From NCBI RefSeq assembly GCF_015476115.1, contig NZ_CP064295.1, positions 3,280,001-3,344,000 on the forward strand: a stretch of DNA of 64,000 nt, in the 5' to 3' direction. This document shows, piece by piece, positions 32,811-55,326 of the stretch. The notes under the pieces are model-generated. The model was given only the letters and a program-made list of their open reading frames with translations, made no database searches and was not told the DNA's origin. Numbering within the stretch: position 1 is the stretch's first letter; each line of letters begins with the position of its first letter. The DNA is from Aegicerativicinus sediminis. Its GTDB lineage: Bacteria; Bacteroidota; Bacteroidia; Flavobacteriales; Flavobacteriaceae. The translations under genes and the position numbers were made by a program.

Positions 32811-35600
32811 ATGATTAAACGGGTATTATATATTCTGTGTCTTCTTCTTATTCATATTTCGGTATATGGTCAATTTACCCCATATTTTAAGAATTATGAA
32901 TTATCAGACTATAATGGAGCTAACCAAAATTGGGACGTTTGCATCGCAGAGGATGGTATGGTCTATGTCGCTAATCATAGGGGGCTACTAACCTATGATG
33001 GCTTAGTTTGGAAGTTGCACGAATTACCTAATAAAACAATTATTCGCTCTGTTTTCTCAATAGGTCCACGGATTTATACCGGCTCCTTTGAGGAGTTTGG
33101 TTTTTGGGAAAAAGATGAATATGGCGACTTAAAATACACCTCCTTGAAAGATCGGTTTGAGCAAAATATTCCCAATAATGAGGAGTTTTGGCAAATCTTA
33201 AGTTTTGGTGATAAAATTGTTTTTAAATCCTATTCCAATCTTTACATATATAATGGGGACAGTATAAAAAGGTTCGTTCCAAGCTCATCCGTTATGTATA
33301 TAACCATTATTGATAATGAAATTCTTGTTGCGACACTAAATGCTGGTATTTACAAATTTGATGGTCTTGGGTTCTCTAGATACTTCAATCACCCAAGTCT
33401 TGTTGATACTAGGGTAATGGGAATAACAGAATCAAAGGACGGTGTAATTATTTCCACAGCACTGAAGGGTTCATTTAAAATTAGCGGAAAGAACTTAATC
33501 GCTTTAAACCGGCCTATTGACAAGCTAATCAAGGAACACCAATTAAATAGACTTACTCAATTAAATGATGGGAGACAAGTTTATGGAACAATTAAAAATG
33601 GATGTTTTATTACAGATCAAGATGGAACTGTTATTAGCCATCTAAGTAAGTCTGAAGGGTTGGTAAATAATACTGTTCTAGGATTAAGTACGAATGATGA
33701 AAATCTGTGGCTCGCCCTTGACAATGGCTTAGCCAAAGTTAGTTTAGATGAAAACTATCAATTTTATAATGATATATCAGGAAAACTTGGGGCCGTTTAT
33801 GACGTAATTTTTTATAATGGCACTTATTACATAGGTAGCAATACTGGACTATTTTATTTAAATAAAAACAGGGAATTAGAATTTGTTGAAGGAACAAATG
33901 GCCAAATTTGGGATTTGAGGATTATCGATGGTCAATTATTTTGCGGTCATAATGTTGGGACATTTATAGTTGAAAATGAAGCCATTGAGTGGATTTCTAG
34001 TTATACTGGAGGTTGGACATTAAAGAAAATTCCCGAAAAACCAGATTCTTATATACAGGGAACCTATGCTGGTGTAGTAAGGTTTTCTAATTTGGAGAAT
34101 AGCAACTGGAATGTGAAGCATTTAGGTAGGACCTATATGCCTATAAAATATTTGGAGTTTGAAAATCAGCATACCCTTTGGGCGGCAAATGCCTATAAGG
34201 GGCTTTATAAATTCAATATTTCTGATAATTTAGATACTATCACTAATATTGAAAGTTACGACAATAAGGGACTTTATTCTCAGTATAATGTAAGGATATA
34301 TAAAATAAAAGGTGAAGTATGTTTTAAAACCAATGAAGGTTGGCAACAATATGGTGCATTACAAGACTCCATAATTCCTTTCCCGTTGCTTGACAAAAAA
34401 ATAGGAAAGGACGCTTACATTATTTCAGAATTTGATGAGGACGAACTGGTTATAAAATCTGAAGATAAAAGCATTAAGTTTATTTCTTTCGAAAATTCTT
34501 CTTCACCGGTAACCATATCTAGCACTTTTTTTGAGAATCGATTAATTGATGGAGATGAGAAGGTTGTGAAAATTAAGGATTCAATTTATGCATTAAATCT
34601 TAACAATGGATTTGTACTTATCGATCGATCTAAACCAATTGCCATAGGTGATGTTTCCAAACCCATATTAAATACCATATCAATTAATTATGAACCGGTT
34701 AAATTAGATGATTGGAGTGACAATTTTTTGAATATTGATTATGGAAATGATGTAGTTATAACAGCCTCCGCTTCAAAAAATGATAATTATAGCTTAGAAT
34801 ACTCGATAACAGATGGTACTGATAAATGGGTTATTGTACCATCGAATACCATCGAATTAAAAAATCTCAAATCTGGTAAATACAATCTAATCTTAAGAAC
34901 AAGGAATGAATTTGGGGAGGCCTCGGACTCTTCCGTTATTAAAATAAATGTATCTCCACCATGGTATAATGACACGCCTGGTTACGTTCTGTTCTTTTCT
35001 CTAATGGTTGTTATGATTTTGATTTTTTATTGGATGCACAAGCGAAAAATTGCAAAAGAACAGAGTTTGCTCCAAGCAAAAATGATGAAAGAGCAAGAGG
35101 AATTATTAAGGGAAAAGGCAATTGAAAATGAAAAACAAATTGTACTTGTTAAAAATCAATCGCTTAAGAACGAACTAAAATTAAAAACCAAACAGTTAGC
35201 TAATAGTGCAATGGCTTTAGCTAAGAAGAATGAGACTTTAATTGGGTTAAAAAAAGATTTAGTGCAGAGTAAAGAGCAATTCAACAATTATTATTCCTTT
35301 AAAAATATTATAAAGAAAGTTGACCATTCTATTACCCATAGAGATGAATGGGAATTGTTTGAAGAAAATTTTAACCAGGTGCATGAAGAGTTTTTCACCA
35401 ATTTAAAAGAGAAACATCCCAATTTAAACCCAAAAGATTTAAGAATGTGCGCCTACATCAAAATGGGGTTAAGCACCAAAAAAATTGCACCTTTATTAAA
35501 TATTTCCGTAAGAGGTGTTGAAACACATCGTTACAGATTGAAGAAGAAGCTAAACCTAGATAATGGCAAAAAAATAGGAGGATATTTGCGATCTCTCTAA
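32811..35600 (+). CDS. PUL regulator: periplasmic propeller and Y_Y_Y sensor, one membrane helix, LuxR-type HTH
   Basis: A 929-residue transmembrane transcription regulator. It has a signal peptide (ending VYGQ), a long Reg_prop-type double propeller (residues about 25-620, repeats such as GLLTYDGLVWK, GLVNNTVLGLS, NLWLALDNGLAKV), a Y_Y_Y Ig-like domain (about 630-715, ending NVSPPWYNDTPG), one membrane helix (about 724-745), a Glu/Lys coiled coil (about 750-835) and a LuxR-like HTH (LNPKDLRMCAYIKMGLSTKKIA...RGVETHRYRLKKKL). No histidine kinase or receiver domain is present, so it is not a classic hybrid two-component system. It precedes susC and probably senses a breakdown oligosaccharide. 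Confidence 0.9.
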   Translation: MIKRVLYILCLLLIHISVYGQFTPYFKNYELSDYNGANQNWDVCIAEDGMVYVANHRGLLTYDGLVWKLHELPNKTIIRSVFSIGPRIYTGSFEEFGFWEKDEYGDLKYTSLKDRFEQNIPNNEEFWQILSFGDKIVFKSYSNLYIYNGDSIKRFVPSSSVMYITIIDNEILVATLNAGIYKFDGLGFSRYFNHPSLVDTRVMGITESKDGVIISTALKGSFKISGKNLIALNRPIDKLIKEHQLNRLTQLNDGRQVYGTIKNGCFITDQDGTVISHLSKSEGLVNNTVLGLSTNDENLWLALDNGLAKVSLDENYQFYNDISGKLGAVYDVIFYNGTYYIGSNTGLFYLNKNRELEFVEGTNGQIWDLRIIDGQLFCGHNVGTFIVENEAIEWISSYTGGWTLKKIPEKPDSYIQGTYAGVVRFSNLENSNWNVKHLGRTYMPIKYLEFENQHTLWAANAYKGLYKFNISDNLDTITNIESYDNKGLYSQYNVRIYKIKGEVCFKTNEGWQQYGALQDSIIPFPLLDKKIGKDAYIISEFDEDELVIKSEDKSIKFISFENSSSPVTISSTFFENRLIDGDEKVVKIKDSIYALNLNNGFVLIDRSKPIAIGDVSKPILNTISINYEPVKLDDWSDNFLNIDYGNDVVITASASKNDNYSLEYSITDGTDKWVIVPSNTIELKNLKSGKYNLILRTRNEFGEASDSSVIKINVSPPWYNDTPGYVLFFSLMVVMILIFYWMHKRKIAKEQSLLQAKMMKEQEELLREKAIENEKQIVLVKNQSLKNELKLKTKQLANSAMALAKKNETLIGLKKDLVQSKEQFNNYYSFKNIIKKVDHSITHRDEWELFEENFNQVHEEFFTNLKEKHPNLNPKDLRMCAYIKMGLSTKKIAPLLNISVRGVETHRYRLKKKLNLDNGKKIGGYLRSL

Positions 35601-35650
35601 AAATTGAAGTATAATAATCGTTTTTTCTTAAATGAAGACTACTTCAAAAC

Positions 35651-35743
35651 TACGTCAATTGCAATCTTAACATTTTAATTTCTTAATTTTTTCTAAATTT
35701 AAAGTACGTCATACTTGATTTTTTAACTCATTTTTAAGTATGA
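35651..35743 (+). promoter_or_regulatory. Candidate operator region of the PUL, upstream of susC
   Basis: Between the regulator stop (35600) and the susC start (35827) lie a direct repeat TACGTCA (35651-35657 and 35705-35711) and an inverted repeat TCATACTT / AAGTATGA (35709-35716 and 35736-35743, centres 27 bp apart). Spacing of two to three helical turns suits a dimeric LuxR-type regulator. No clear TAnnTTTG box was found. Confidence 0.35.
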
Positions 35744-35826
35744 AGTAATCAAAGCGTATCCCGATTTTTATTCTCGACTCGGATAGAGATTAATTTAGAC
35801 GAAACTAACAATTCAATTTTTTAGGC

Positions 35827-38800
35827 ATGAATGTCAAGAAGTACTTATTACTGGTATTCCTACTTCTCGGAATTACCGGATTTTCTCAAGAACGAACAAT
35901 AACAGGAACAGTAACAGGGGCAGACGATGGGATGCCTTTGCCTGGGGTGAATGTATTAATTCAAGGTTCCACTAGAGGTACAACTACAGATTTTGATGGA
36001 AATTATTCCATTGAAGTATCCACTGGTGAAATTCTTGAGTTTAGTTATGTGGGGTTTATAACTCAAAACATTACAATTACAAGTCAGAATCAACTTGATG
36101 TTGTACTACAAACGGATGTACAAAGTTTAGATGAGGTAGTGGTAATTGGTTATGGTACCGCACAGAAACGTGATTTAACTGGTTCAATTGTAAAAGTTGA
36201 TGGTGATGTGGTGGCAGATAAGCCTGCAACCAATCCAGTTGCTTCACTTCAAGGTAGAGTATCCGGACTATCAGTTGTTAACTCTGGTAGGTTAGGCCAA
36301 GAACCTGATATAAGAATTAGAGGTACAAGCAGTAGGTATAATACCAAGCCGTTGTTTGTAGTAGACGGAATTTTCGCAGATGATATAAGTTTTGTAAATC
36401 CAAACGATATAGAATCTATAGAGGTTTTAAAGGATGCATCATCATTAGCGATTTTTGGTGTTAAAGGTGCGAATGGGGTAATTATCGTAACTACAAAACA
36501 GGCCAAAGCGGGCAAATTAACAGTTAATTTAAACACCTCCATTGGTATAAAAAATATAGTTGGGGAACCAGATATGGCAGATGCAGCTTTATTTACCGAA
36601 TTATATAATGAACGTTTAAGTAATGAAGGTTTATCCCCATTTGGATATTATGATTTGTTTACTGGAGATACTGATTGGGTTGATACAATAAGCAACGAAT
36701 CTGCTATTATACAGATTAACAACGTTAGTATCCAAAGTGCGACAGAGAAAAACAAAATATCCTTCGGGATGGGGTATAGATTTGAAGAAGGCTTAATTAA
36801 GAATGAGAATTTTAGAAGGTTCACGGTTAACATCAATGATGAATTCAAAATTAATGACAATATAAAGGTTGGCGTAACATTTAAAGGGCTAAAAGATAAA
36901 TTACCAAATCAAGGAAGTTTCTCCTCATCTCTTAATGCTACTCCCATAGTAGATCCAATTCATAGGGATTCACGTGAAGAGTACGATGGGTTATATAACC
37001 AGTTACCACTTGAAATAGGAGGTGCCCAAATAGGCAATCCATTATTAGTAGCTAATGTTACTAAAAACAAGGCAATTTCAGAACGGTACCAATTTGTAGG
37101 TAGCATGTTTGCAGAAATTAATTTTTGGAAGAACTTTACTTTCAGAGCTAATTTCTATGGAGATTATGCATCTGGCAAATCCAGAAACTATACTCCAATT
37201 GTACCGATTTATGTGTCTGAAACGGATGAAATAGATAATTTTAATGGAACTCAGTTAACAAGGGTATCACAATCCACTTATAACAACATTAATTTCCAAC
37301 AGGAATATTTACTGTCATATAAGCGTGATTTCGATTTACATGGTGTTACAGCAACTTTAGGTTATACTACAACAGAAAATAAAGTAGAGTCTATTTCTGG
37401 AAGTGTTCAACACGATCCAAGTGTAGGTCGCATACCAGATGATCCTAGATTTTGGTATGTTGGAGTATTTCCATACGGAGATCCAACCTCTAGAACCTCT
37501 AGTTCTGGGCAATTTGATAGAGCTACCACCTCTATTTTGGGTAGGGTTTTATATAATTATGATGGCAAGTATTTAATAAATGCTTCCTATCGTAATGATG
37601 CAACTTCTCAATTAGCACCAGATAACCGTAACCAAGATTTTTGGTCGGTAGGTGCCGGCTGGGTTATGTCTAGAGAATCCTTTTTGGAAGATGTTGAATC
37701 CTTAAACCTACTAAAATTGAAAGGTTCTATAGGTCAATTAGGAAATCAATATGTTCCTGTTAATTACCCATTTTATCCTGGTGTAAATGAAGGTGCAACG
37801 GCAGTTTTCGGCGAAAATGTTATACCTGGGTATGTACAAAGATTTGAAGAGAATCCGGATTTGCAATGGGAAACTGTAAGACTTTGGGAAGCAGGTTTTG
37901 AATCTCAATGGTTCAATAACCGTCTTACATTCAACGCTAATTACTATAATAGACTTACAGAAAACTTATTGGTTTTTGTGGATATAGGAACAGCACAGTT
38001 TTTTGATAACTCAGGAGAAATTGAAAATAATGGATTTGAGTTGGAGCTGGATTGGTCTAATACAAGTGAATCGGGTGATTTTAACTATTCAATTGGTGGA
38101 AATTTAACCACAATTAACAATGAAGTTTTATCAACTCGGGAGGATGCAGCAATCTTCGCAGGAGCTGCCTCAAGAACAATTACTGGACAACCTATTGGTC
38201 ATTTTTATGGATATATTGTTGAAGGATTATACCAATCTAATGCCCATATAGCTGAGTCGCCGGTTAGTACCTTGGGTAATTATGGGCCTGGTGATTTCAG
38301 ATATAAGGACGTAAACGGAGATAACCAGATAACTCCAGCGGATAGGACCGTTATTGGAAATCCAACTCCTGATTTTACTTATGGTTTTTATACAAACTTT
38401 GAATACAAAAGATTCTTTTTGAATGTTGATTTTCAAGGTGTATATGGCAATGAAATTTATAGGAACTGGGGTAACGGAAATTCCTTCGCACAGTTTAACT
38501 ATAGAGCAGACAGAGCAAATAGATGGACGCAATCAGGGAGTTCAAATTGGGAACCTCGTCTATACGATGCGTCAGAATATAATAGGTTGCCATCAACTTA
38601 CATGATTGAAGATGGAAGCTACATTAGAATTCGAAACCTTCAATTTGGTTACAATTTTAATCCTGATAAATTCAGTGTTTTGGGTATACAACAGATGAAG
38701 TTGTTTGCTAATATTCAGAATTTATATACATGGAAACATAATTCAGGATTTTCGCCAGAGGCAGGTGGATCACCAATCGCATTCGGAATTGATGGAGGTG

Positions 38801-38850
38801 GTTATCCTGTACCTGTGATTTCATCATTAGGCTTTGTCGTAACCTTTTAA
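35827..38850 (+). CDS. SusC/RagA-family TonB-dependent glycan importer
   Basis: A 1007-residue outer-membrane transporter. It has a signal peptide (ending ITGFSQ), a carboxypeptidase-D-like N-terminal domain (RTITGTVTGADDGMPLPGVNV, residues about 21-105), a plug domain (EVVVIGYGTAQKRDLTGS, then PLFVVDGIF and VLKDASSLAIFGVKGANGV) and a 22-strand barrel ending in an aromatic residue (SSLGFVVTF). It pairs with the SusD lipoprotein that starts 10 bp downstream. Together they bind and import oligosaccharides released at the cell surface. Length is normal for the family. Confidence 0.96.
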   Translation: MNVKKYLLLVFLLLGITGFSQERTITGTVTGADDGMPLPGVNVLIQGSTRGTTTDFDGNYSIEVSTGEILEFSYVGFITQNITITSQNQLDVVLQTDVQSLDEVVVIGYGTAQKRDLTGSIVKVDGDVVADKPATNPVASLQGRVSGLSVVNSGRLGQEPDIRIRGTSSRYNTKPLFVVDGIFADDISFVNPNDIESIEVLKDASSLAIFGVKGANGVIIVTTKQAKAGKLTVNLNTSIGIKNIVGEPDMADAALFTELYNERLSNEGLSPFGYYDLFTGDTDWVDTISNESAIIQINNVSIQSATEKNKISFGMGYRFEEGLIKNENFRRFTVNINDEFKINDNIKVGVTFKGLKDKLPNQGSFSSSLNATPIVDPIHRDSREEYDGLYNQLPLEIGGAQIGNPLLVANVTKNKAISERYQFVGSMFAEINFWKNFTFRANFYGDYASGKSRNYTPIVPIYVSETDEIDNFNGTQLTRVSQSTYNNINFQQEYLLSYKRDFDLHGVTATLGYTTTENKVESISGSVQHDPSVGRIPDDPRFWYVGVFPYGDPTSRTSSSGQFDRATTSILGRVLYNYDGKYLINASYRNDATSQLAPDNRNQDFWSVGAGWVMSRESFLEDVESLNLLKLKGSIGQLGNQYVPVNYPFYPGVNEGATAVFGENVIPGYVQRFEENPDLQWETVRLWEAGFESQWFNNRLTFNANYYNRLTENLLVFVDIGTAQFFDNSGEIENNGFELELDWSNTSESGDFNYSIGGNLTTINNEVLSTREDAAIFAGAASRTITGQPIGHFYGYIVEGLYQSNAHIAESPVSTLGNYGPGDFRYKDVNGDNQITPADRTVIGNPTPDFTYGFYTNFEYKRFFLNVDFQGVYGNEIYRNWGNGNSFAQFNYRADRANRWTQSGSSNWEPRLYDASEYNRLPSTYMIEDGSYIRIRNLQFGYNFNPDKFSVLGIQQMKLFANIQNLYTWKHNSGFSPEAGGSPIAFGIDGGGYPVPVISSLGFVVTF

Positions 38851-38860
38851 AAAAATAGAG

Positions 38861-40327
38861 ATGAACAAGATAAATTTTAACAAAATAGTTTTAATAACTC
38901 TCTTTGGGCTCTTTCCTTTTATATCGTGCAACGACGACTTTTTGGACAGATTGCCATTAGGTGAGGTAGCCAACCCAGAAGAATTGGGAGTTGGTGGACA
39001 AGAAACTGCCGTATTCGGTATTTATTCATTGATGAGATCAACGGGGGTAGGCCAATGGCAACGTTATTGGTTTGGAAGTATTCGTTCCGATGATGCGGCA
39101 AAGGGTAGTACTTCAGGGGATTCTGCTGCGAATGGTACAGCTTTTAATGACTTTGATTATGTTGCTACAAATGGTTTAAGCACCAGTTGGTGGAACGGAC
39201 ATTATACCATCATTTTTGCATGTAATGAAGTTATTAATACATTAAATGAAACTGGTGCAACTGATCCTGGAAGCTTAATTAATGAATCTGAGGCCAAGGT
39301 CATTAGAGCCTGGATGTATTTTGAATTGAGAAGAGACTATGGTGAAGTTCCAATTATTACTGCGACCATTGATAATCCGGAAGATGCTATTGCCGCCAAG
39401 TCTCCGGTCACTGCAATTGACCAATTGATAGAAGAGGATTTAAAATTTGCTGCTCAATATCTTCCTTTAGTATGGGAGGCATTTCCTGGAAGAGCCACTT
39501 CTGGATTTGCAAATTCTTTGTTGGCCAAATTATACTTATACCAAGGACAATGGCAAAAGGCGTATGACAAAGCAGTGGAGGTTATAGATACAGGTGTTTA
39601 CCAACTAGATCCAGATTTAGTGAATTTGTTTGAAATAGGAGGTGACAACGGTGTTGAATCAATTTTTGAAATTCAACAATTGGTTACTGACAACCAAAAT
39701 TATGCAGACAATTATTATGTTTCCCAAGGAGTTAGGGGAACTGGTGTTTGGAATTTAGGTTGGGGATTTAATGTTCCTACTCAGGATTTGGTTGATACGT
39801 TTGAAAATGGTGATAGAAGAAAAGCAAATACAATTTTAGAATCAGGTGAAGATGATGGTGGATTCGGTAGTGGAACCTTGCCCGAATCGCCACCGTTGGC
39901 ACAACCCTATTGGAATAAAAAGGCATATACTAAACTTGCAGTTAGAACCCAGTTTAGCATGAACGGAAATCGCTGGGAGAATATAAAAATTGTGAGATAT
40001 GCCGACGTTATTCTAATGGCAGCTGAGGCGGCCAATGAATTAGGGATGATGAGTGAAGCCGCATTTTATCTTAATCAGATACGGACAAGGGCAGGTTTAG
40101 GAAACACTTCAGCGGCGGATCAATCTGAGATGAGAGTTGCTATCAAACATGAAAGACGTGTGGAATTTGCTTTGGAAGAGTATAGATTTTACGATTTAGT
40201 AAGATGGGGGGATGCTAGTACAGTATTAGCACCCTTAGGTTACGAGCCAAGAAATGCCCTTTTTCCTATTCCTCAAGAGGCTATAGATCAATCGGGTGGT
40301 GTATTAGTACAGAATCCAGATTATTAA
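38861..40327 (+). CDS. SusD/RagB-family glycan-binding lipoprotein
   Basis: A 488-residue surface lipoprotein with signal GLFPFISC and mature start CNDDFLDRLPLGEV, the family hallmark. TPR-like helices and the C-terminal SusD motifs follow (YADVILMAAEAANELGM, YLNQIRTRAGL, IKHERRVEFALEEYRFYDLVRW). It forms the lid over the SusC barrel and contacts the glycan. Its short spacing after susC shows co-transcription. Confidence 0.96.
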   Translation: MNKINFNKIVLITLFGLFPFISCNDDFLDRLPLGEVANPEELGVGGQETAVFGIYSLMRSTGVGQWQRYWFGSIRSDDAAKGSTSGDSAANGTAFNDFDYVATNGLSTSWWNGHYTIIFACNEVINTLNETGATDPGSLINESEAKVIRAWMYFELRRDYGEVPIITATIDNPEDAIAAKSPVTAIDQLIEEDLKFAAQYLPLVWEAFPGRATSGFANSLLAKLYLYQGQWQKAYDKAVEVIDTGVYQLDPDLVNLFEIGGDNGVESIFEIQQLVTDNQNYADNYYVSQGVRGTGVWNLGWGFNVPTQDLVDTFENGDRRKANTILESGEDDGGFGSGTLPESPPLAQPYWNKKAYTKLAVRTQFSMNGNRWENIKIVRYADVILMAAEAANELGMMSEAAFYLNQIRTRAGLGNTSAADQSEMRVAIKHERRVEFALEEYRFYDLVRWGDASTVLAPLGYEPRNALFPIPQEAIDQSGGVLVQNPDY

Positions 40328-40346
40328 AATTTAAAATCAAATTCCA

Positions 40347-42083: not shown

Positions 42084-42137
42084 GGATAAAGTTAAAGACG
42101 CATACTAAATAATAGTTTGGTATTATTCAAAAAATAG

Positions 42138-42169: not shown

Positions 42170-42202
42170 TTCTTAAAAATCCATTTTAATAAAATAATTA
42201 TC

Positions 42203-45774: not shown

Positions 45775-45775
45775 C

Positions 45776-48085
45776 ATGAAATTCAACAGTTTTCGATTAT
45801 TTATTGCTTTAGTAATTGTTTCATTTTTAGTTACAAATTGTGAGTCTAAACAATCTTTGGATAATGGTGATAATGCCAATTTAGCCATAGACCAAAAGGT
45901 TGACTCTATTATAAATTTAATGACCTTACAAGAAAAATTGGGACAATTAAATTTACCTTCTTCTGGTGATATTACAACAGGTCAGGCAAAAAGTTCAAAT
46001 ATTGCTAAGAATATTGAACAGGGCAAAGTTGGTGGTCTCTTCAATATAAAAGGTGTCGAAAAAATTCGTGAGGTTCAACGTATAGCAGTTGAAAACAGTC
46101 GTTTAAAAATTCCACTACTTTTTGGTATGGATGTCATTCATGGGTATGAAACTACATTTCCCATACCATTGGGTTTAGCCGCAAGTTGGGATACCGAAAT
46201 GATTAAAAAAACGGCACAAATGGCAGCAAAGGAAGCTAGTGCGGATGGAATAAATTGGACGTACTCTCCTATGGTTGATATTTCTAGAGATCCAAGATGG
46301 GGAAGAATTTCAGAAGGTTCAGGAGAAGATGTTTACTTAGGAAGTGCAATAGCAAAGGCAATGGTGGAAGGTTATCAAGGAACCGATTTAACTCACCCGG
46401 AAACCATCTTGGCATGTGTAAAGCATTTTGCCCTATACGGTGCGGCAGAGGCTGGTAGAGATTATAATACGGTCGATATGAGTCGTATTCGTATGTTTAA
46501 TGAGTATTTACCACCTTATAAAGCTGCTGTTGATGCAGGTGTGGCATCTGTAATGGCATCATTTAACGAAATTGATGGTGTTCCTGCAACTGGTAATAGA
46601 TGGTTGTTAACAGAGCTTCTGAGGGATCAATGGGGTTTTAATGGTTTTGTTGTTTCAGATTATACAGGAATAAATGAAATGATAGCTCATGGAATGGGCG
46701 ATTTACAAGCAGTATCAGCTCTAGCTTTACATGCCGGGACAGATATGGATATGGTAGGTGAAGGTTTTTTAACTACCCTAGAAAAATCGCTAAATGAAGG
46801 TAAAATTTCTATTGATGAAATTAACCTGGCCGTTAAAAGAATTTTGAAAGCCAAATACCAATTAGGTCTATTTGAAGACCCTTATAAATATTGTAATCTA
46901 CAAAGAGCCGAAAATGATGTTTTTACCTATGAGAATAGAGTTTTTTCTAGGCAGGTAGGTGCAGAATCTATGGTTTTATTAAAAAATGAGAATAATTTAT
47001 TGCCACTAAAAAAGCAAGGTACAATAGCTCTTATCGGCCCATTATCAAATACACCGGTAAATATGGCCGGAACATGGAGTGTTGCTACTAACCAAGGGCA
47101 ATCTATTTCATTTCTAGATGGTTTGAAAACTGTTGTAGGAAATAATGCCAACATTTTACATGCACAGGGAAGTAACGTTGATTATGATTCACAATATCAG
47201 GCACATGTTACTATGTTCGGCAAAGAGATCGCAAGAACTAAATCTGATAAAGAATTGTTGGCGGAAGCCATCGAAGTAGCAAAAAAGGCTGATGTTATTA
47301 TCGCCGCTATTGGGGAAACCGCGGAACTAAGTGGTGAAAGTAGCAGTGTAACGAACCTTCAAATTCCACAAACCCAAAAAGATCTATTAAAGGAATTGCT
47401 GAAAACCGGAAAACCTGTCGTGTTAACTTTATTTACTGGCCGTCCATTGGCAATAACATTTGAAAATGAAAATGTACCCGCCATATTAAATGTTTGGTTT
47501 CCTGGAAGTATGGCCGGTTTATCTATTAGTGATGTGTTGTTTGGAGATGTTAACCCTAGTGGTAAGTTACCAGCCACCTTCCCAATGAATGTTGGACAAG
47601 TTCCAATATTCTATAACCATAAAAATACAGGAAGGCCTATAAGCAATAAAGAGGGTAAATTTGAAAAATTCAGATCTAATTACTTAGATGTGCGTAACGA
47701 ACCTTTATACCCTTTCGGTTATGGGCTAAGTTATACAACTTTTAATTATTCAAAAGTAAAGTTAAGTTCAAATGAAATGCCAAATAATGGCAGTATAACC
47801 GTATCAGTTGATGTTACTAACACTGGTAATTTTGATGGAAAGGAAGTTGTTCAACTTTACATTCGGGATGTGGTAGGATCCGTTACACGACCAGTTAAAG
47901 AACTGAAAGGTTTTAAGAAAGTTTTGATTAAGAAAGGAGAAACAACGACTGTAACATTTAATCTAACTTATGAGGATCTAAAGTTTTATGATTATAATTT
48001 AGACTTTGTAGCTGAACCAGGGGATTTTCAAGTGTTTGTTGGCACAGATTCGTCAACCGAAAATATGGCCGAATTCAAATTATAA
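45776..48085 (+). CDS. bglX: GH3-family beta-glucosidase
   Basis: A 769-residue lipoprotein (signal ending LVTNC). It has the GH3 N-terminal barrel with the sugar-binding KHF in CVKHFALYGAAEAGRDYN, nucleophile Asp295 in GFVVSDYTGI, and a C-terminal alpha/beta sandwich with the likely acid/base Glu in ELSGESSSVTNL. A fibronectin-III-like end follows (VQLYIRDVVGSVTRPVKELKGF). It trims gluco-oligosaccharides to glucose from the non-reducing end. GH3 members of GH144 loci prefer beta-1,2 linked sophoro-oligosaccharides, so that is the favoured substrate. Length fits BglX. Confidence 0.92.
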   Translation: MKFNSFRLFIALVIVSFLVTNCESKQSLDNGDNANLAIDQKVDSIINLMTLQEKLGQLNLPSSGDITTGQAKSSNIAKNIEQGKVGGLFNIKGVEKIREVQRIAVENSRLKIPLLFGMDVIHGYETTFPIPLGLAASWDTEMIKKTAQMAAKEASADGINWTYSPMVDISRDPRWGRISEGSGEDVYLGSAIAKAMVEGYQGTDLTHPETILACVKHFALYGAAEAGRDYNTVDMSRIRMFNEYLPPYKAAVDAGVASVMASFNEIDGVPATGNRWLLTELLRDQWGFNGFVVSDYTGINEMIAHGMGDLQAVSALALHAGTDMDMVGEGFLTTLEKSLNEGKISIDEINLAVKRILKAKYQLGLFEDPYKYCNLQRAENDVFTYENRVFSRQVGAESMVLLKNENNLLPLKKQGTIALIGPLSNTPVNMAGTWSVATNQGQSISFLDGLKTVVGNNANILHAQGSNVDYDSQYQAHVTMFGKEIARTKSDKELLAEAIEVAKKADVIIAAIGETAELSGESSSVTNLQIPQTQKDLLKELLKTGKPVVLTLFTGRPLAITFENENVPAILNVWFPGSMAGLSISDVLFGDVNPSGKLPATFPMNVGQVPIFYNHKNTGRPISNKEGKFEKFRSNYLDVRNEPLYPFGYGLSYTTFNYSKVKLSSNEMPNNGSITVSVDVTNTGNFDGKEVVQLYIRDVVGSVTRPVKELKGFKKVLIKKGETTTVTFNLTYEDLKFYDYNLDFVAEPGDFQVFVGTDSSTENMAEFKL

Positions 48086-48137
48086 ATTGTTATTTTATCA
48101 AAATGTTTCTGATAAACTTAATTGAAATTTGATCATA

Positions 48138-49025
48138 GTGAAAAAAATATTGCCCCTTATTTTTCTATGCTTCTCCACCTTACTTTTTGCCCAAGTAAAA
48201 ACGACTCATACTTATGCAATTAAGGGAGGTGATACCTTAAAGTTAGATTTATATGTTCCAGAGAATTTTAATGGTGAGGGCAAGTTGCCTTTACTATTAT
48301 GGATGCATGGTGGAGGTTTTTCAGGGGGTCAGAGAGATAATGAAAATGAAGTCCAATTATTTAAATATACTGCAGAGAATGGGATTATTGCCGCCTCAAT
48401 TTCTTACCGCCTAACTAGAAAAGGTAAGAAAACTGGGTTTGGCTGTAATTGCAATAAAAAAGAAAAAATAGAAACTTTTAGGCAGGCCGCCATAGATTAT
48501 TTAGATGCAGCCAATTATTTAGTTTCAAAATCAGATGAACTTCCAATTAATCCCTCGAAAATAATTGCTGGAGGGAGTAGTGCAGGTGCAGAGGCAGTTT
48601 TAAGTGCCGTGTTTATGCGTAAATTTTATATAAAAGATCTTGATAAATACAATAAGGTATCATTTGTAGGGGTATGGTCTTTGGCGGGTGCACTTGTAAA
48701 TGCAGATTATATAACAAAAGCGAATGCCGTGCCAACAATACTTTTTCATGGCACAAAAGATAATGCTGTTCCATTTTCGACGGATTCCCATCATTTCTGC
48801 AATAAAAATTCACCGGGGTATCTCATATTGAATGGTTCAAAACCAATAGCGGATAAATTAAAATCCTTAAACACTTCATTTTACTTAAACATAGTTCAGG
48901 ACGGTGGGCATGAGGTTTCAGGCATACCGTTTCAGGATTTAGAAAACGTTTTTGAATTTATAAATACAGCTATCTTAAGTGATGAAAAAGTTCAGACTAC
49001 AATAACAAAAGAATCATCAAATTGA
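48138..49025 (+). CDS. Alpha/beta-hydrolase esterase, HGGG type
   Basis: A 295-residue secreted esterase. The GTG start at 48138 yields a clean signal peptide (ILPLIFLCFSTLLFAQ). An earlier TTG at 48129 is less likely. Oxyanion motif HGGGFSGG (residues about 58-65), nucleophile Ser in GGSSAGAE, Asp in HGTKDNAVPF and His in GGHEV complete the triad of the hormone-sensitive-lipase / BD-FAE-like group. Such enzymes remove acetyl or other acyl groups from polysaccharides. Its stop overlaps the sulfatase TTG start by 4 bp, so the two are coupled. Confidence 0.8.
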   Translation: MKKILPLIFLCFSTLLFAQVKTTHTYAIKGGDTLKLDLYVPENFNGEGKLPLLLWMHGGGFSGGQRDNENEVQLFKYTAENGIIAASISYRLTRKGKKTGFGCNCNKKEKIETFRQAAIDYLDAANYLVSKSDELPINPSKIIAGGSSAGAEAVLSAVFMRKFYIKDLDKYNKVSFVGVWSLAGALVNADYITKANAVPTILFHGTKDNAVPFSTDSHHFCNKNSPGYLILNGSKPIADKLKSLNTSFYLNIVQDGGHEVSGIPFQDLENVFEFINTAILSDEKVQTTITKESSN

Positions 49026-50710
49026 AAAGGTTAATTTCGCTTATAGGTTTATTCATATTATTTTCTTCATGTAAAGAAAAAGAGCAACAATTACCAAAAA
49101 AGGATACGAAAAGGCCTAACATTATTTATATCATGGCCGATGACCATGCTGAGCAGGCTATTAGCGCATATGCACACTCTATTGGAGAATTGGCTCCAAC
49201 TCCAAACATAGATAGAATTGCCAAAGAAGGTGCTCTCTTTAGAAATAATTTCTGTACCAATTCAATTTGTGGGCCAAGTAGGGCAGTGGTTTTAACAGGT
49301 AAGTTTAGCCATGTAAATGGGTTTAGAATGAATGGGGATCGATTTAATGGTGACCAACAAACTTTTCCCAAACTCCTTCAAAAGGCTGGTTACAAAACTG
49401 GTTTAGTTGGAAAATGGCATCTGTATGGCCTTCCTCAAGGTTTTGATTATTGGAAAATAATTGATGACCAAGGGCATTACTATAATCCAACCTTCATATT
49501 TCAAGGAGGAAATGGGAAACAGGCGGATACCTTAGATATTGAAGGATATGCAACCGATATTATTACAAGCCAAGCGCTTGAATTTCTAGAAAAAAATCAA
49601 GATAAAGATGAGCCATTTATGCTTATGGTCCATCACAAAGCTCCCCACCGTAATTGGATGCCTGCGTTACGCCATGTAAACAAATATGATTCCATTAAAT
49701 TTCCTATTCCTGAAACGTATTTTACTGATCATGCTGGCTCATTAGGTTCACAAGAGCAGTTACAGACCATTTATAAAGATATGTATGAAGGACATGATTT
49801 AAAAATGACAAAAACCAAAGGTGATCCAGAATTGGCATGGAATCCTTGGACAAATGATTTCGACCGTATGTCGGATTCACAACGTCGCACATGGGATTCG
49901 TTATATGCTCATAAAAACGATGCCTACCATGAGGCTAATCTTTCTGGAAAAGCTTTAGCGGAATGGAAATATCAGCGTTATATGCAAGAATATTTATCAA
50001 CTATTGCTGCAGTTGATGAAGGGGTTGGCAAAATATTAGATTATTTAAAAAACAATAATCTTGATGAAAATACAATTGTAATTTATACGACTGATCAAGG
50101 ATTCTATTTAGGTGAAAAAGGTTGGTTTGATAAACGATATATGTATGAGCAGTCCTTAGCTATGCCATTATTGGTTAAATATCCTGGTCATATTGAATCA
50201 GGTTCTGAAATTGATGCATTGACCCAAAACATAGACTTTGCAGAAACTTTTCTAGATTTTGCAAATGTTCCTATGCCCAACGATATGCAAGGGAAGTCGT
50301 TGAGGCCATTACTTGAAGGTAAAGTGAGTGAATCCGATTTTCGGGATGCTATCTATTATCATTATTACGATTATCCTGCTTTTCATATGGTTAAAAAGCA
50401 TTATGGTGTAAGAACATATCGGTATAAACTGATGCATTTCTATGACGACATCGATACTTGGGAATTATATGACTTGGAAAAGGATCCAATGGAAATCAAC
50501 AATCTTATAGATAACTCTGAATATGATGAAATAGAAGCTGATTTAAGGGATAAATTGTCGGAACTTCAAGAGAAATATAATGTCACCGATAAAGAATTTG
50601 AACAAGCTCCAAAAGAACAAGTCGAACGGGCTTATAAACAGTTCGAGAAATTAAGAGGTAATACCGGGACAGCTTATGATCCTCAGTTGGATAAAGACAT
50701 TAGGCTTTAA
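49022..50710 (+). CDS. S1-family sulfatase (formylglycine type)
   Basis: A 562-residue lipoprotein (GLFILFSSC) starting at TTG 49022. The sulfatase core starts with RPNIIYIMADDHAEQA, which supplies metal-binding Asp residues. The fGly motif is CGPSR at Cys83, with VVLTGKFSH downstream. VGKWHLYG and YTTDQGFYLGEKGWFDKRYMYE are further hallmarks. A C-terminal subdomain carries WELYDLEKDPMEINNL. The active Cys must be oxidised by a sulfatase-maturating enzyme encoded elsewhere. Family members hydrolyse sulfate esters of sugars; phosphonate or phosphodiester activity also occurs in this superfamily. Confidence 0.9.
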   Translation: MKRLISLIGLFILFSSCKEKEQQLPKKDTKRPNIIYIMADDHAEQAISAYAHSIGELAPTPNIDRIAKEGALFRNNFCTNSICGPSRAVVLTGKFSHVNGFRMNGDRFNGDQQTFPKLLQKAGYKTGLVGKWHLYGLPQGFDYWKIIDDQGHYYNPTFIFQGGNGKQADTLDIEGYATDIITSQALEFLEKNQDKDEPFMLMVHHKAPHRNWMPALRHVNKYDSIKFPIPETYFTDHAGSLGSQEQLQTIYKDMYEGHDLKMTKTKGDPELAWNPWTNDFDRMSDSQRRTWDSLYAHKNDAYHEANLSGKALAEWKYQRYMQEYLSTIAAVDEGVGKILDYLKNNNLDENTIVIYTTDQGFYLGEKGWFDKRYMYEQSLAMPLLVKYPGHIESGSEIDALTQNIDFAETFLDFANVPMPNDMQGKSLRPLLEGKVSESDFRDAIYYHYYDYPAFHMVKKHYGVRTYRYKLMHFYDDIDTWELYDLEKDPMEINNLIDNSEYDEIEADLRDKLSELQEKYNVTDKEFEQAPKEQVERAYKQFEKLRGNTGTAYDPQLDKDIRL

Positions 50711-50844
50711 AATTTACTTAGGTTTTGTTTGTTGAGTCTTTTAAAATGCAACTAGAATTTTTCAAACCAAAATTCAAAGTTTTTTAAAATGATAACTGAT
50801 GGATTTTGAGTAATTTATTAACCAATTGAATTAAATTACATATA

Positions 50845-52686
50845 ATGAGAACGGTCATTTTAGTTATGCTTATAATAATGTTCATTTCTTGTGAAAGGAC
50901 TAACAGCGCCGATGATCAAACTGAATTGACAACTGAATTAGCTCAAAGTACAAATAGCGATACTTACTGCAATCCTTTAGATATAGATTACACCTATATG
51001 GTATACAATTCAAGCAGAAATATTTCGTATCGTTCTGGTGCAGATCCAGCAGTAATTGAATTTCGTGGAGAATATTATATGTTCGTAACCAGATCATTTG
51101 GTTATTGGCATTCTACCGATTTGGTGAATTGGAAATTCATTAAACCCCTTCAATGGTATTTTGAGGGTTCAAATGCACCAACCGCTTTTAATTGTAAGGA
51201 TTCACTTGTATACTTTGCAGGAGATCCTGCCGGTTACGGGAGTATAATTTATACAGATGACCCTAAAAGTGGCAAGTGGACACCAACGCCATCTATTTCA
51301 AATAATATTCAGGATTCTGAATTATTCATTGATGATGACGGACAAACATATTTGTACTGGGGATCATCAAATGTTTATCCAATAAGGGTTAAAATGCTTA
51401 ATAAGGATGACCGTTTTTTAGAAATTGGTGTAAAGGAAGATTTAATTAACCTTAATGAGGAGAAACATGGATGGGAACGTTTCGGTGAGAACAATTTTCA
51501 TCCAACATTGAAGGAGGGCTATATGGAGGGCGCATCCATGACTAAGCACAACGGAAAGTACTATTTACAGTATGCTGCTCCCGGCACCCAGTTTAATGTC
51601 TATGCGGATGGTGCCTATATTGGTGACACGCCTCTTGGGCCATTTAATTACATGAAAAATAATCCTATGAGTTTTAAACCTGGAGGATTTACAAATGGAG
51701 CCGGTCATGGAATTACGGTTAAACAGACGAATGGCCAATATTGGCATTTTGCCACAATGGCTCTTGCATCCAACTCTCAATGGGAACGTCGTTTGTGCAT
51801 GTTTCCTGTTTATTTTGATGATGAAGGTTTAATGTATAGCAATACCGATTATGGAGATTATCCTCGTTTTGGACCCGCTCATCCCAATAGGGCTGGTCAG
51901 CATAATGGTTGGATGCTTCTGTCATATAAAGGAAATGTGACCGTCTCTTCTTCTTTAACTCAGGTTATGAAATTTACCTCAAATACTGAGGAAGTTACCG
52001 AAACGGAAATACCATTAGAAAAAAATGCCTATGGTGAAATTATATCTAAAGTTTTAACCGATGAAAATCCCAAAACCTACTGGGTTGCTCAGGCCAATAA
52101 TGACAACGAATGGGTGAACATTGAGATGTTGAAACCAGGTAAGATTCATGCAATTCAATTAAACTTCCATGATCATGAGTCTGGTATTTATACTAGAACA
52201 GAAGGATTAAAACATCAATTCACAATTGATGTTTCCGCGGATGGAACTAATTGGCAAACAGTGGTTGATCGTAGTGATGCCCAAATTGATGCTCCCAATG
52301 CCTATATTGTTTTAGAAGAACCCGTCGTTGCTAAATATGTTCGATACAATAATATTAAAGTACCTGGTGCAAATTTTGCAATGTCTGAAATCAGGGTTTT
52401 TGGTGTCGGTCAAGGAGAAAAGCCAGAAACCGTGAATGGATTTTTAGTCCAACGTCAAAATGATAAGAGAGATGCTTCTTTTAGTTGGGATCCAGTGGCT
52501 GATGCCCAAGGTTATAACATTCGCTGGGGAATTGCTCCAGATAAACTTTACCAATCATGGCTAGTTTATGACAAAAATGAACTTTTTATCCGTTGTTTAG
52601 ACCGTGATACACCCTATTATTTTAGCATTGAATCCTTTAATGAAAATGGAAAATCAGAAAAAAGTGAAATTATTTATGTTGAGTAG
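50845..52686 (+). CDS. GH43-like glycosidase with discoidin-type and FN3-like C-terminal domains
   Basis: A 613-residue lipoprotein (MLIIMFISC). A five-bladed propeller (residues about 40-350) shows the GH43/clan-F triad: Asp67 in SGADPAVIEF, Asp157 in NIQDSELFID and Glu228 in YMEGASMTKH. It is followed by an F5/8-C (CBM32-like) domain (about 385-525, ENPKTYWVAQANNDNEWVNIEML...EIRVFGVG) and an FN3-like module at the end. GH43 enzymes remove arabinofuranose, xylose or galactose; the specificity here is unclear. It has a 134-bp leader, so it may have its own promoter. Confidence 0.82.
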   Translation: MRTVILVMLIIMFISCERTNSADDQTELTTELAQSTNSDTYCNPLDIDYTYMVYNSSRNISYRSGADPAVIEFRGEYYMFVTRSFGYWHSTDLVNWKFIKPLQWYFEGSNAPTAFNCKDSLVYFAGDPAGYGSIIYTDDPKSGKWTPTPSISNNIQDSELFIDDDGQTYLYWGSSNVYPIRVKMLNKDDRFLEIGVKEDLINLNEEKHGWERFGENNFHPTLKEGYMEGASMTKHNGKYYLQYAAPGTQFNVYADGAYIGDTPLGPFNYMKNNPMSFKPGGFTNGAGHGITVKQTNGQYWHFATMALASNSQWERRLCMFPVYFDDEGLMYSNTDYGDYPRFGPAHPNRAGQHNGWMLLSYKGNVTVSSSLTQVMKFTSNTEEVTETEIPLEKNAYGEIISKVLTDENPKTYWVAQANNDNEWVNIEMLKPGKIHAIQLNFHDHESGIYTRTEGLKHQFTIDVSADGTNWQTVVDRSDAQIDAPNAYIVLEEPVVAKYVRYNNIKVPGANFAMSEIRVFGVGQGEKPETVNGFLVQRQNDKRDASFSWDPVADAQGYNIRWGIAPDKLYQSWLVYDKNELFIRCLDRDTPYYFSIESFNENGKSEKSEIIYVE

Positions 52687-53515
52687 GTTTAAACCTGTTT
52701 TGTTAACCTGCATGATTTTGTTTCCTCTTATTACAACTTCCCAAGATTTAAAAGTCATGACATACAACATTCGTTATGATTCAAAAGACAAAGTAGGATG
52801 GGAGGTAAGAAAGTCTTTTTTAATAGCTCAGTTAAACTTTTTTGAACCTGATATTATAGGAACACAGGAAGGTTTAATTCACCAACTTAATGATATTGAA
52901 AATGGTCTTTCTAATTATTCATTTTTCGGAAAAGGACGCGATCATGGTGATAAAAGGGGTGAACATTCAGCCATATTTTACAACAATCAGAACCTAAAAT
53001 TATTGAAAAGTGAAACCTTTTGGCTATCTGAAACTCCCGATAAACCATCCAAGGGCTGGGATGCCGCTATAAAAAGAGTTTGTACTTCTGGATTTTTCGA
53101 GAAACTACATAACAAAAAGAAGTTTTACGTATTCAATCTTCACTTAGATCATGTTGGCGAGCAAGCTAGGATCAACAGTGTAAAATTAGTTTTACAGAAA
53201 ATAATCGCTTTGACCAAAGAAAATCATCCTGTAGTTTTGATGGGAGATTTTAATTTAGAACCCGCCCATTCAGCAATAAATTCTATAAAAAGTGCCTTAA
53301 GAGATACATATGAATTGGCTGGAGAAAATGTGTTTGGTCCCGAAGGAACTTTTAATGGTTTCAAAATTGATTATGGGGAGGAGAGACGAATCGATTATAT
53401 TTTTGTTTCTGAAGATTTTAAGGTTCAAAAATTGGCGATTTTAAGTGAGGTTACCAATGCGCAATTTCCATCTGACCATTTTCCGGTATTGGCATTGTTG
53501 CAATTTGAACAATGA
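52676..53515 (+). CDS. Exported endonuclease/exonuclease/phosphatase (EEP)-family hydrolase
   Basis: A 279-residue protein starting at ATG 52676, overlapping the GH43 stop by 11 bp. The longer open frame to 52604 is probably not used, because MLSRFKPVLLTCMILFPLITTSQ is a proper signal peptide. EEP motifs are intact: MTYNIRYDS, GTQEG (metal Glu), LMGDFNLEP and SDHFPVLA. EEP proteins cleave phosphodiesters in nucleic acids, sphingomyelin or inositol phosphates. An exported one inside a glycan locus suggests removal of a phosphodiester-linked substituent. Confidence 0.85.
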   Translation: MLSRFKPVLLTCMILFPLITTSQDLKVMTYNIRYDSKDKVGWEVRKSFLIAQLNFFEPDIIGTQEGLIHQLNDIENGLSNYSFFGKGRDHGDKRGEHSAIFYNNQNLKLLKSETFWLSETPDKPSKGWDAAIKRVCTSGFFEKLHNKKKFYVFNLHLDHVGEQARINSVKLVLQKIIALTKENHPVVLMGDFNLEPAHSAINSIKSALRDTYELAGENVFGPEGTFNGFKIDYGEERRIDYIFVSEDFKVQKLAILSEVTNAQFPSDHFPVLALLQFEQ

Positions 53516-53632
53516 TTTTTAGTTTGCCATATTGGTCTAAAAATCGACAAAAATCTCTTTATGATGTTCAATCAATAATTAAAGCATAACATATTTACTA
53601 TTTTAGCGCAACACTAATCAATACTAACTAAA

Positions 53633-55282
53633 ATGATTGAAATTCTCTCCTTTATTGGCTTCACCCTTTTGGTGGCTGTTATTTCCTATTTCGCAACACG
53701 CAAGACTGATGAATCTACCTCCGATGGATATTTTCTTGGAGGAAGGAGTCTAACAGCTGGTGTAATTGCTGGTTCTTTATTATTGACCAACCTGTCTACG
53801 GAGCAAATAGTCGGATTAAATGGCCAGGCCTACACAGAAGGTATTTTAGTAATGGCATGGGAAACTTTGGCGGCAATTGCTATGGTGGTTACCGCTATAT
53901 TTTTATTGCCTCGCTATTTAAAGGAGGGGCTTACCACAGTACCCCAATTTTTGGCAACACGATTTGATGTTTCTACCAAAACCATCACTTCTGCTTTATT
54001 TTTAACTGGTTATGTCGTGGTCCTTTTACCCATTATATTGTATTCGGGTTCCGTAGCAGTGAGTGGAATGTTTAATATCCCTGAATTGTTGAATGTCTCA
54101 GATACGACTGCTTTATGGATATGTGTTTGGTTTATTGGAGTTGTTGGGTCTATATATGCTGTATTTGGAGGATTAAAGGCTGTTGCGGTTTCAGATACAA
54201 TCAATGCGATCGGTTTATTAATTGGAGGTTTAATGATCCCTGTTTTTGGATTGATGATTATTGGTGATGGGAATTTTTTTGATGGAATATCAACTCTAGT
54301 TAAAGACAATCCTGAAAAATTCGATTCTATTGGTACTGTTACTAATTCTGTTCCTTTTTCAACCATTTTCACCGGAATGATGTTAGTTCAGTTATTTTAT
54401 TGGGGAACTAACCAGCAAATCATTCAACGGGCACTGGCAGCAAAAAATTTAAAAGAAGGTCAGAAAGGATTGTTGTTGGCTTCTTTCATCAAGATTTTAG
54501 GACCTCTAATTGTAGTTCTCCCAGGGATTATCGCTTGGCATATTTTTGAAGGAAATTTAGATGTTGCAGATCAAGCATATCCAAGATTGGTGAACCGAGT
54601 TTTACCAGCTTCATTATTAGGGTTTTTCGCAGCAGTTTTATTTGGTGCTATTCTCAGTTCCTTCAATAGTGTATTAAATAGTTCTGTTACTTTATTCGGT
54701 ATAGATATTTACAAACAGCACATTAATAAAAGTGCTGACGAACGTACTGTCGTAAAATATGGTAAAATGTTTGGAGTGTTCTTGGCATTGGCGGCAATGT
54801 TTATCGCTCCTTTTATTGCAAATGCTGGTAGTTTATTTGCCTATCTTCAAGAAGTAAATGGTATCTATAGTATCCCTATTCTTACAATTATCGTTGTAGG
54901 TTATTTAACGAAACGTGTTCCTGCTATCGCTGCGAAAATTGGACTTATATCTGGCTCTCTACTTTATATAATTAGTCAATTTTTTATGAAGCCTTATTTC
55001 GTGGACAAGGCTTTGGCTGAAGCTGAGGCATCTGGGGTAAGCGATGCTGCTACATTAGCTTTGGTGGAGGCTGAGGCATATCCACATTTTTTACATGTTA
55101 TGGCCATTCTCTTCATCACCAATATTTTAATAATGTTAGCCATAGGTAAAATGAAACCGAGAGAAACCCCATATATCCAAGAATATACAAGGAAGGTAGA
55201 TATTACACCATGGCGTTTAGTTAAACCAGTCGGTCTTGGAATCTGTATTGTTGTAATTATAATCTATATTTATTTTTCATAG
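53633..55282 (+). CDS. Sodium:solute symporter (SSS/SGLT family)
   Basis: A 549-residue inner-membrane carrier with about 13-14 helices. SSS hallmarks include GGRSLTAGVIAGSLLLTNLSTEQIVGLNG near the N-terminus, AVFGGLKAVAVSDTINAIGLL, and FYWGTNQQIIQRALAAKNLKEGQKG. These match sugar and sugar-acid symporters of PULs. It is the last gene of the locus and closes with a terminator. It probably imports the final monosaccharide (glucose or a released sugar) with sodium. Confidence 0.92.
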   Translation: MIEILSFIGFTLLVAVISYFATRKTDESTSDGYFLGGRSLTAGVIAGSLLLTNLSTEQIVGLNGQAYTEGILVMAWETLAAIAMVVTAIFLLPRYLKEGLTTVPQFLATRFDVSTKTITSALFLTGYVVVLLPIILYSGSVAVSGMFNIPELLNVSDTTALWICVWFIGVVGSIYAVFGGLKAVAVSDTINAIGLLIGGLMIPVFGLMIIGDGNFFDGISTLVKDNPEKFDSIGTVTNSVPFSTIFTGMMLVQLFYWGTNQQIIQRALAAKNLKEGQKGLLLASFIKILGPLIVVLPGIIAWHIFEGNLDVADQAYPRLVNRVLPASLLGFFAAVLFGAILSSFNSVLNSSVTLFGIDIYKQHINKSADERTVVKYGKMFGVFLALAAMFIAPFIANAGSLFAYLQEVNGIYSIPILTIIVVGYLTKRVPAIAAKIGLISGSLLYIISQFFMKPYFVDKALAEAEASGVSDAATLALVEAEAYPHFLHVMAILFITNILIMLAIGKMKPRETPYIQEYTRKVDITPWRLVKPVGLGICIVVIIIYIYFS

Positions 55283-55296
55283 GTTATATGCAGTTT

Positions 55297-55326
55297 AAAA
55301 AAAGGGTGTTATAACACCCTTTTTTT
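55297..55326 (+). terminator. Intrinsic terminator at the end of the PUL
   Basis: GGGTGT / ACACCC stem with a 4-nt loop, seven A before and seven T after, 15 bp past the symporter stop. It works in both directions in principle; here it ends the plus-strand PUL. Confidence 0.88.

Follow-up and report, generated by a model that had tools for sequence, protein, structure and literature searches.

We analysed a 64,000-nucleotide stretch of the Aegicerativicinus sediminis genome (the window; positions 3,280,001-3,344,000 of contig NZ_CP064295.1, a single-contig genome of 4.09 Mb) for the polysaccharide utilization locus (PUL) that it carries and for the substrate that this locus may serve. According to the reading of open reading frames (ORFs) and to profile searches, window positions 32811-55282 form one PUL, with every gene on the + strand. 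Its genes are mostly separated by 1-43 bp or overlap slightly; larger gaps follow the regulator (226 bp) and precede GH144A (119 bp), the GH43 gene (134 bp) and the symporter (117 bp). An earlier note on this DNA, made from the letters alone, had listed the genes of a glycan-degrading locus at this place, and all of the genes it named were found.

The PUL opens with an exported sensor-regulator that has a C-terminal LuxR-type helix-turn-helix domain (32811-35600; PF00196 at residues 873-918). It is followed by a SusC/RagA TonB-linked outer membrane transporter (35827-38850; TIGR04056, 816 bits against a cut-off of 368), a SusD-family surface glycan-binding lipoprotein (38861-40327; PF07980, 127.9 bits; PF14322, 63.7 bits) and a lipoprotein that is likely another surface glycan-binding protein, with two stretches matching the LamG profile PF13385 (40347-42083). 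The two LamG domains are identical at 169 of 194 residues and at 497 of 582 bases of DNA, and they use different codons at 40 of the 169 identical residues. The adjacency of SusC and SusD, together with co-directional genes for carbohydrate-active enzymes and a regulator, identifies the locus as a SusCD-type PUL. Promoter-like sites between 32400 and 36000 numbered 22, against a shuffled mean of 17.0 (standard deviation 3.4), and terminators numbered 2 against 1.5; neither count was used.

The enzymes come next, with signal peptides or lipoboxes at their N-termini, as read by eye. Two endo-beta-1,2-glucanase-like lipoproteins, GH144A (42203-43579, with its start set at 42203; PF10091, 263 bits) and GH144B (43583-44977; PF10091, 259 bits), precede esterase 1, an alpha/beta hydrolase proposed to be a deacylase (44980-45774; PF00326 and PF02230, with a GLSMGG motif seen by eye), a GH3 beta-glucosidase of BglX type (45776-48085; NF011678, 912.5 bits against a cut-off of 666) and esterase 2, a BD-FAE-like protein also proposed to be a deacylase (48129-49025; PF20434, 63.4 bits). 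Then follow an S1_11-like lipoprotein sulfatase of family S1 with a C-x-P-S-R nucleophile motif (49022-50710; PF00884/PF16347), a GH43-family enzyme with an F5/8-type-C (CBM32-like) domain and weak fn3 matches (50845-52686; PF04616, 95.6 bits; PF00754, 49.7 bits) and an exported EEP-family phosphatase or phosphodiesterase (52676-53515; PF03372, 62.5 bits), for which the ATG at 52676, immediately preceding the signal peptide, is a better start than the GTG at 52604. The last gene encodes a sodium:solute symporter of the SSS family, proposed to carry sugar (53633-55282; NF007790, 787 bits against a cut-off of 401), and its stop codon closes the PUL. A 674-residue TPR protein at 55409 probably lies outside.

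Apart from GH144A and GH144B, the whole genome has no PF10091 match. The characterised endo-beta-1,2-glucanase CpSGL (5gzh) matches them at 589 and 533.7 bits, far above 8xul, which we take to be the divergent GH144 enzyme XcSGL (127 and 158.6 bits), while 8wy1 (GH189) matches GH144B alone, at 24.8 bits. The GH3 enzyme matches 5xxl at 1044.5 bits. We take 5xxl to be BT3567, the beta-1,2-glucooligosaccharide-active GH3 enzyme of the Bacteroides thetaiotaomicron beta-1,2-glucan locus. When 5gzh chain positions are taken as CpSGL numbering, pairwise alignments place the same letters in both GH144 proteins at E211, F268, Y330, D135, D139 and E142. The first three residues define the SGL clan in CpSGL, and mutation of the other three drastically lowers its activity (PMC12102758; here and below, cited papers are represented by excerpts of their text). 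The earlier note had proposed a beta-1,2-glucan backbone, and these kept residues, together with a GH3 enzyme close to 5xxl, support that proposal at the level of sequence.

Much of the gene set recurs around GH144 in other genomes. We compared 80 named loci, the top-scoring ones among at least 589 GH144B relatives, by counting relatives of each gene within about 10 kb; the counts are lower bounds, with short contigs kept (for example L100 and L127), and the EEP and symporter genes sit near or beyond the edge of the stretches, which lowers their counts. Relatives were present for GH144A and SusC (77 loci each), GH3 (76), the regulator (75, at 28-54% identity), the LamG protein (73), esterase 1 (62), SusD (52), the sulfatase (51, at 55% identity or more), GH43 (42), esterase 2 (33), EEP (23) and the symporter (2), the last of which is counted in the PUL by its position. 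Gene order in these loci is similar. Recurrence of so much of the set, in similar order, argues that the grouping is not a product of chance, and it is the outcome of a comparison with GH144 loci that the earlier note had called for. The hosts include Mariniflexile, Allomuricauda, Maribacter, Winogradskyella, Lutibacter, Kordia and Zobellia. We take the host genera of the loci closest to GH144B to be mostly marine, and the source bacterium is probably marine as well. Besides relatives of the PUL's own genes, five ORF clusters recur in at least 4 of the 80 loci; the scanned member of one carries GH2 and malectin domains (17 loci; for example L140:14533-17133) and that of another GH97 (8 loci; for example L093:18883-20976), which hints that some targets have side chains or further linkages.

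We then quantified how closely each accessory enzyme is tied to GH144, using a family sample of 199 genomes and a phylum sample of 395 genomes, some of which are common to both. GH144B has matches in 54 genomes of the family sample, or 52 after dropping the fragmentary G169 and G182. The sulfatase search was run at E<=1e-100 with at most 7 candidates scored per genome, and the partner-gene searches at E<=1e-60 or 1e-30 with at most 6 or 11 candidates per genome, so that some weaker or additional copies may have been missed; nearness means within 25 kb of GH144, a distance of our own choosing. The search returned 122 sulfatase matches in 88 of the 199 genomes, with a gap in identity between 60% and 54%. 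Above the gap lie 32 matches in 31 genomes, all 31 of which are GH144-positive, and 30 of these 32 matches are near GH144. Of the two exceptions, one lies on a separate contig of a fragmented assembly (G015) and the other is an additional copy in G143. Below the gap, in contrast, 2 of 90 matches are near GH144. Co-occurrence of sulfatase and GH144 across genomes has a Fisher probability of 1e-22 when the genomes, although related, are treated as independent. In 49 GH144 neighbourhoods compared beside the window's own (G146 and G161 were left out), a sulfatase of at least 59% identity lies inside the 20-kb stretch in 23. The sulfatase is thus among the strictest partners of GH144 and, at 60% identity and above, is almost confined to GH144 loci.

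A sulfatase tree of 87 rows, built by a quick method, separates a 67-row clade, which includes the solved chain 9s03, from the 20 other rows with an SH-aLRT support of 99. The outside rows comprise 18 of the 90 distant matches and a G094 gene that is present in two rows; in the tree as a whole, L016 and L045 represent a single gene, and the named and the unnamed sets have some genomes in common. The possibility that the sulfatase is an accidental neighbour was considered and is rejected by this tree and by the linkage to GH144 (30/32 versus 2/90). In the phylum sample, GH144 occurs in 106 of the 395 genomes and the sulfatase (E<=1e-180) in 11, all of them within those 106. Eight of the 11 sulfatases have at least 60% identity and three have 52-58%. 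GH144 is close by on the same contig for seven of the 11 and about 280 kb distant for one, and the other three sulfatases sit on contigs different from that of GH144. Among GH144-positive genomes, the sulfatase is present in 6 of 8 from the window's family apart from the large genus g128 (the window's own genome counted), in 1 of 19 from g128 and in 4 of 79 elsewhere, so that most GH144 genomes of the phylum sample are without it.

The solved structures nearest to the sulfatase are 9s03 (932 bits), followed by 5g2v (557.8 bits) and 7p24, the latter two being named carbohydrate sulfatases. We take 5g2v and 7p24 to be BT4656 and BT3177, and on these assumed identities the closest solved carbohydrate sulfatases are S1_11 enzymes. 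Both BT4656 and BT3177 are S1_11 members, and the gut-bacterial enzymes of this subfamily remove 6-O-sulfate from N-acetylglucosamine (GlcNAc) (PMC10154612). The Cys of the C-x-P-S-R motif is kept in 66 of the 67 clade rows, and the lone Ser belongs to the construct used for 9s03. The Asp, His and Gln positions of the sulfatase motif that were checked besides this Cys do not vary within the clade. D370, R372 and H455, presumably the S1_11 recognition triad, are invariant in all 67 rows. In that triad, an Asp/Arg pair reads O4 and a His reads O3 of the sugar, while the region that recognises the N-acetyl group is missing in about half of S1_11, above all in the aquatic, L-galactose-recognising members (PMC10154612). 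On this basis, glucose that bears a 6-sulfate at the non-reducing end of an oligosaccharide is a plausible candidate target.

The origin of the closest structure could be traced. The 9s03 chain, a putative sulfatase in the PDB, is identical at 558 of 559 aligned residues to one encoded by Mariniflexile fucanivorans DSM 18792, whose gene lies in that bacterium's own GH144 locus (L085), and the sole difference is a Cys-to-Ser change at the nucleophile. The Ser form of the related BT4656 reportedly lacks activity yet still binds substrate (PMC7897442). By this analogy, 9s03 seems to be an inactive form of this type of sulfatase, made by another group. No paper naming 9S03 was found in the open PMC literature.

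The GH43 enzyme and esterase 2 are tied to GH144 as well. In the family sample, GH43 relatives of at least 44% identity number 22, all in GH144-positive genomes and 20 of them near GH144; below 44%, 6 of 10 are near. Residues D67, D157 and E228, which we take to be the catalytic Asp, Asp and Glu of GH43, are invariant in 26 of 26 aligned relatives. An AlphaFold model (mean pLDDT 73.1) adopts a GH43 fold, with a Z score of 25.6 and a root-mean-square deviation of 2.9 over 274 residues to 7k1r, and it is consistent with a five-bladed beta-propeller bearing these three residues. No close solved relative of this GH43 enzyme was found by structure-sequence and profile searches; xylosidases, arabinanases and others are matched at near-tied Z, and we draw no substrate from the comparison. 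Esterase 2 relatives of at least 50% identity are near GH144 in 17 of 20 cases and in GH144-positive genomes in 18 of 20.

For the EEP protein, the closest solved chain is 4c1r, named a mannosyl-6-phosphatase (192.2 bits), and the motifs TYNIR, TQE, GDFN and SDH can be read in its sequence, a resemblance to sugar-6-phosphatases. The earlier note had called it a phosphodiesterase-like enzyme; an exported EEP protein is indeed present, but since 4c1r is the closest chain, a 6-phosphomonoesterase would be as likely as a phosphodiesterase. At 51% identity and above, 10 of 13 EEP relatives are near GH144. A midpoint-rooted tree of 38 near-GH144 rows and 20 of the 69 not-near matches requires 5 changes of the near/far label, compared to a shuffled mean of 16.8, and the starred branches force at least 3. 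One clade of 18 is near-only (100/98), and the window's EEP falls in a group of 18 near and 2 far rows (99/93), whereas a genome of the same genus (G154) carries an EEP of the near-only type. With 5 label changes on the tree, a single dedicated EEP clade is not supported. The simplest reading is that EEP genes were recruited or replaced repeatedly, although one gain followed by losses is possible; repeated recruitment would point to a phosphoester as a regular part of the substrate.

We read the PUL as targeting a beta-1,2-glucan decorated on its glucose units with O-acyl groups, with sulfate that is probably O6-linked and, perhaps, with a phosphoester, and we give this reading a probability of roughly 0.6. 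An S1_11-like sulfatase, a 6-phosphatase-like EEP protein and two esterases beside GH144 fit a C6-substituted beta-1,2-glucan. In the cyclic beta-1,2-glucan of Sinorhizobium meliloti, C6 bears glycerophosphoryl and succinyl substituents (PMC7569799), and those of the glucan proposed here possibly sit there too. In the enzyme locations and order of steps that we infer, the LamG protein and SusD would bind the glycan at the cell surface, the lipoprotein GH144 enzymes would cut its backbone to oligosaccharides and SusC would import these. Within the periplasm, the two esterases would take off acyl groups, the sulfatase would take the 6-sulfate off glucose at the non-reducing end, the EEP protein would take off a phosphate or phosphodiester group and GH43 would take off a side residue. 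GH3 would then free glucose, for uptake by the Na+ symporter. That the substrate is substituted had been suggested in the earlier note, and the suggestion is strengthened by the recurrence of the esterases, the sulfatase and, less strictly, the EEP gene beside GH144. The earlier note had also set an osmoregulated glucan against a sulfated glycan as alternatives; the two probably merge into one sulfated beta-1,2-glucan, which is the economical reading because the sulfatase is among the strictest GH144 partners.

A wider proposal concerns the producers of such a glucan. Marine bacteria might make osmoregulated-type beta-1,2-glucans in which 6-O-sulfate replaces or joins the phosphoglycerol and succinyl groups of soil bacteria, and these might be so common that flavobacterial GH144 loci keep an S1 sulfatase clade and a GH43 type devoted to stripping them, along with EEP phosphatases recruited for the purpose; we make this proposal tentatively and consider it rather unlikely. 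A search of plasmids with OpgG of Escherichia coli K-12 gave 76 records, and six opgG neighbourhoods were read (two from Sulfitobacter and one each from Roseibium, Tateyamaria, Pseudoalteromonas and Paracoccaceae). The two marine Sulfitobacter neighbourhoods hold opgG-opgH-OpgC sets, which makes acylated glucans of this type plausible in the sea. On the Paracoccaceae plasmid (L187; CP031593.1, 2534-17976), opgG has bglX in its vicinity, together with genes for an alpha/beta hydrolase and an 'oligosaccharide amylase', and this group may serve glucan turnover.

Several observations count against a sulfated beta-1,2-glucan as the substrate. The sulfatase is absent from 21 of the 52 GH144 genomes of the family sample and from within about 10 kb in 29 of the 80 named loci, some of whose contigs are short. 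Its presumed recognition triad is not specific to the clade: outside it, the Arg and His are invariant in 20 of 20 rows and the Asp is kept in 18 of 20. Residue 460 (50399-50401) is His, Gln or Met in 33, 17 and 17 of the 67 clade rows and His in all 20 outside rows; this variation may mean that sugar recognition differs, and it may mark sub-specificities. The reviewed S1_11 enzymes act on 6-sulfated GlcNAc or N-sulfated glucosamine (GlcNAc-6S/GlcNS-6S) or on L-galactose, not on glucose-6-sulfate (PMC10154612). EEP relatives near GH144 fall to 9 of 35 at 46-50% identity and to 0 of 40 below that, and GH43 is without an obvious role on a pure glucan. No annotated sulfotransferase lies within 7 kb of opgG in any of the six plasmid neighbourhoods, in a gene table that is incomplete, and no sulfated beta-1,2-glucan was found in searches of the open PMC literature.

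In the strongest competing explanation, algae or other eukaryotes would supply the substrate, a sulfated heteropolysaccharide that either has short beta-1,2-glucosyl stretches or is cut by GH144 enzymes of shifted specificity, and whose other residues would be cut by GH43 and, in related loci, by GH2 and GH97. The faithful partnership of GH43 with GH144 and the recurrent GH2 and GH97 clusters favour it, as does the rest of the genome, where 18 PF00884 matches occur, the PUL sulfatase among them, most in clusters elsewhere; from these 18 sulfatase-family matches, the source bacterium probably also uses sulfated algal glycans. However, the six GH144 residues are unchanged, the GH3 relative is almost always kept in the named loci, and the five recurrent extra clusters, three of which were scanned, reveal no widespread second backbone-cutting family, although GH2 and GH43 could cut other linkages. 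We regard a heteropolysaccharide as a serious but unlikely substrate. It is a good deal more doubtful that the PUL serves a beta-1,2-glucan of the ordinary osmoregulated periplasmic or cyclic sort, substituted by succinyl, acetyl and phosphoglycerol, with the sulfatase's job being incidental. The C6 substituents of the S. meliloti glucan, the Sulfitobacter opg sets and the EEP genes in many GH144 loci all agree with such a substrate, but an incidental gene would not be confined to GH144-positive genomes and placed near GH144 as the sulfatase is. Finally, the sulfatase-family protein might remove another group, such as a phosphonate or phosphodiester, with no sulfated glucan needed, given that the alkaline phosphatase superfamily includes hydrolases of both kinds and that chains so named give weaker matches in the structure list, but the best matches after 9s03 are carbohydrate sulfatases and the nucleophile Cys and other motif residues are kept, which makes this explanation very improbable.

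Elsewhere in the window, a 1441-residue ORF (26000-30325, + strand) carries both an AcrB/CusA-type pump and an outer membrane efflux (OEP) domain in one chain, and a 1033-residue fused pyruvate:ferredoxin oxidoreductase-like protein with 4Fe-4S domains is encoded at 60163-63264 (- strand) in a bacterium that is presumably aerobic. Two adjoining and visibly similar secreted proteins (14983-15624 and 15825-16721, - strand) have no Pfam match at an E value of 0.001, and a 133-residue ORF (19321-19722, - strand) consists of little beyond a TonB-receptor Plug domain.

Since GH144 occurs in 52 of the 199 family genomes and 31 of those 52 also carry the sulfatase, the substrate is probably common in the habitats of these bacteria. 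Activity of the sulfatase on 6-sulfated beta-1,2-glucooligosaccharides would make a sulfated glucan its natural substrate and would help to find the organisms that make it. If the glucan is bacterial, a part of marine sulfated carbohydrate would come from bacteria and not from algae.

Among related systems, the B. thetaiotaomicron beta-1,2-glucan locus around BT3567 shares SusCD, GH144 and a BglX-like GH3 with the window's PUL; it is not known to contain a sulfatase, a GH43 enzyme or an EEP protein. No report identifying the polysaccharide was found in searches of the open PMC literature (subscription papers and supplements lie outside this scope). The central idea is already in print. Lapebie et al. 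(2019) described GH144 PULs of marine organisms to which a sulfatase has been added, and took them to point to a sulfated marine polysaccharide that is unknown yet ubiquitous (PMC6499787). The PUL in the window, likewise a GH144 PUL with a sulfatase gene, is a further case and leads to the same inference about its substrate. In Maribacter dokdonensis 62-1, a cluster of the same kind holds one GH3, two GH144, susCD and sulfatase genes, and every Maribacter and Zobellia is reported to have the GH144 pair; the excerpt reads the cluster as glucosidase or endoglucanase activity alone (PMC8072126). The 9s03 chain, solved with Ser in place of the nucleophile Cys, belongs to the same sulfatase clade as the window's protein and comes from the M. 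fucanivorans GH144 locus. The excerpted account of Lapebie et al. runs to a few sentences, in which the linkage of the sulfatase clade, its relation to S1_11 and the GH43, EEP and esterase 2 partners do not appear. What the present analysis adds is the near-exclusive linkage of the sulfatase clade to GH144, its S1_11 relation with the prediction of O6, the linkage of GH43 and esterase 2, the pattern of EEP occurrence and the origin of 9s03.

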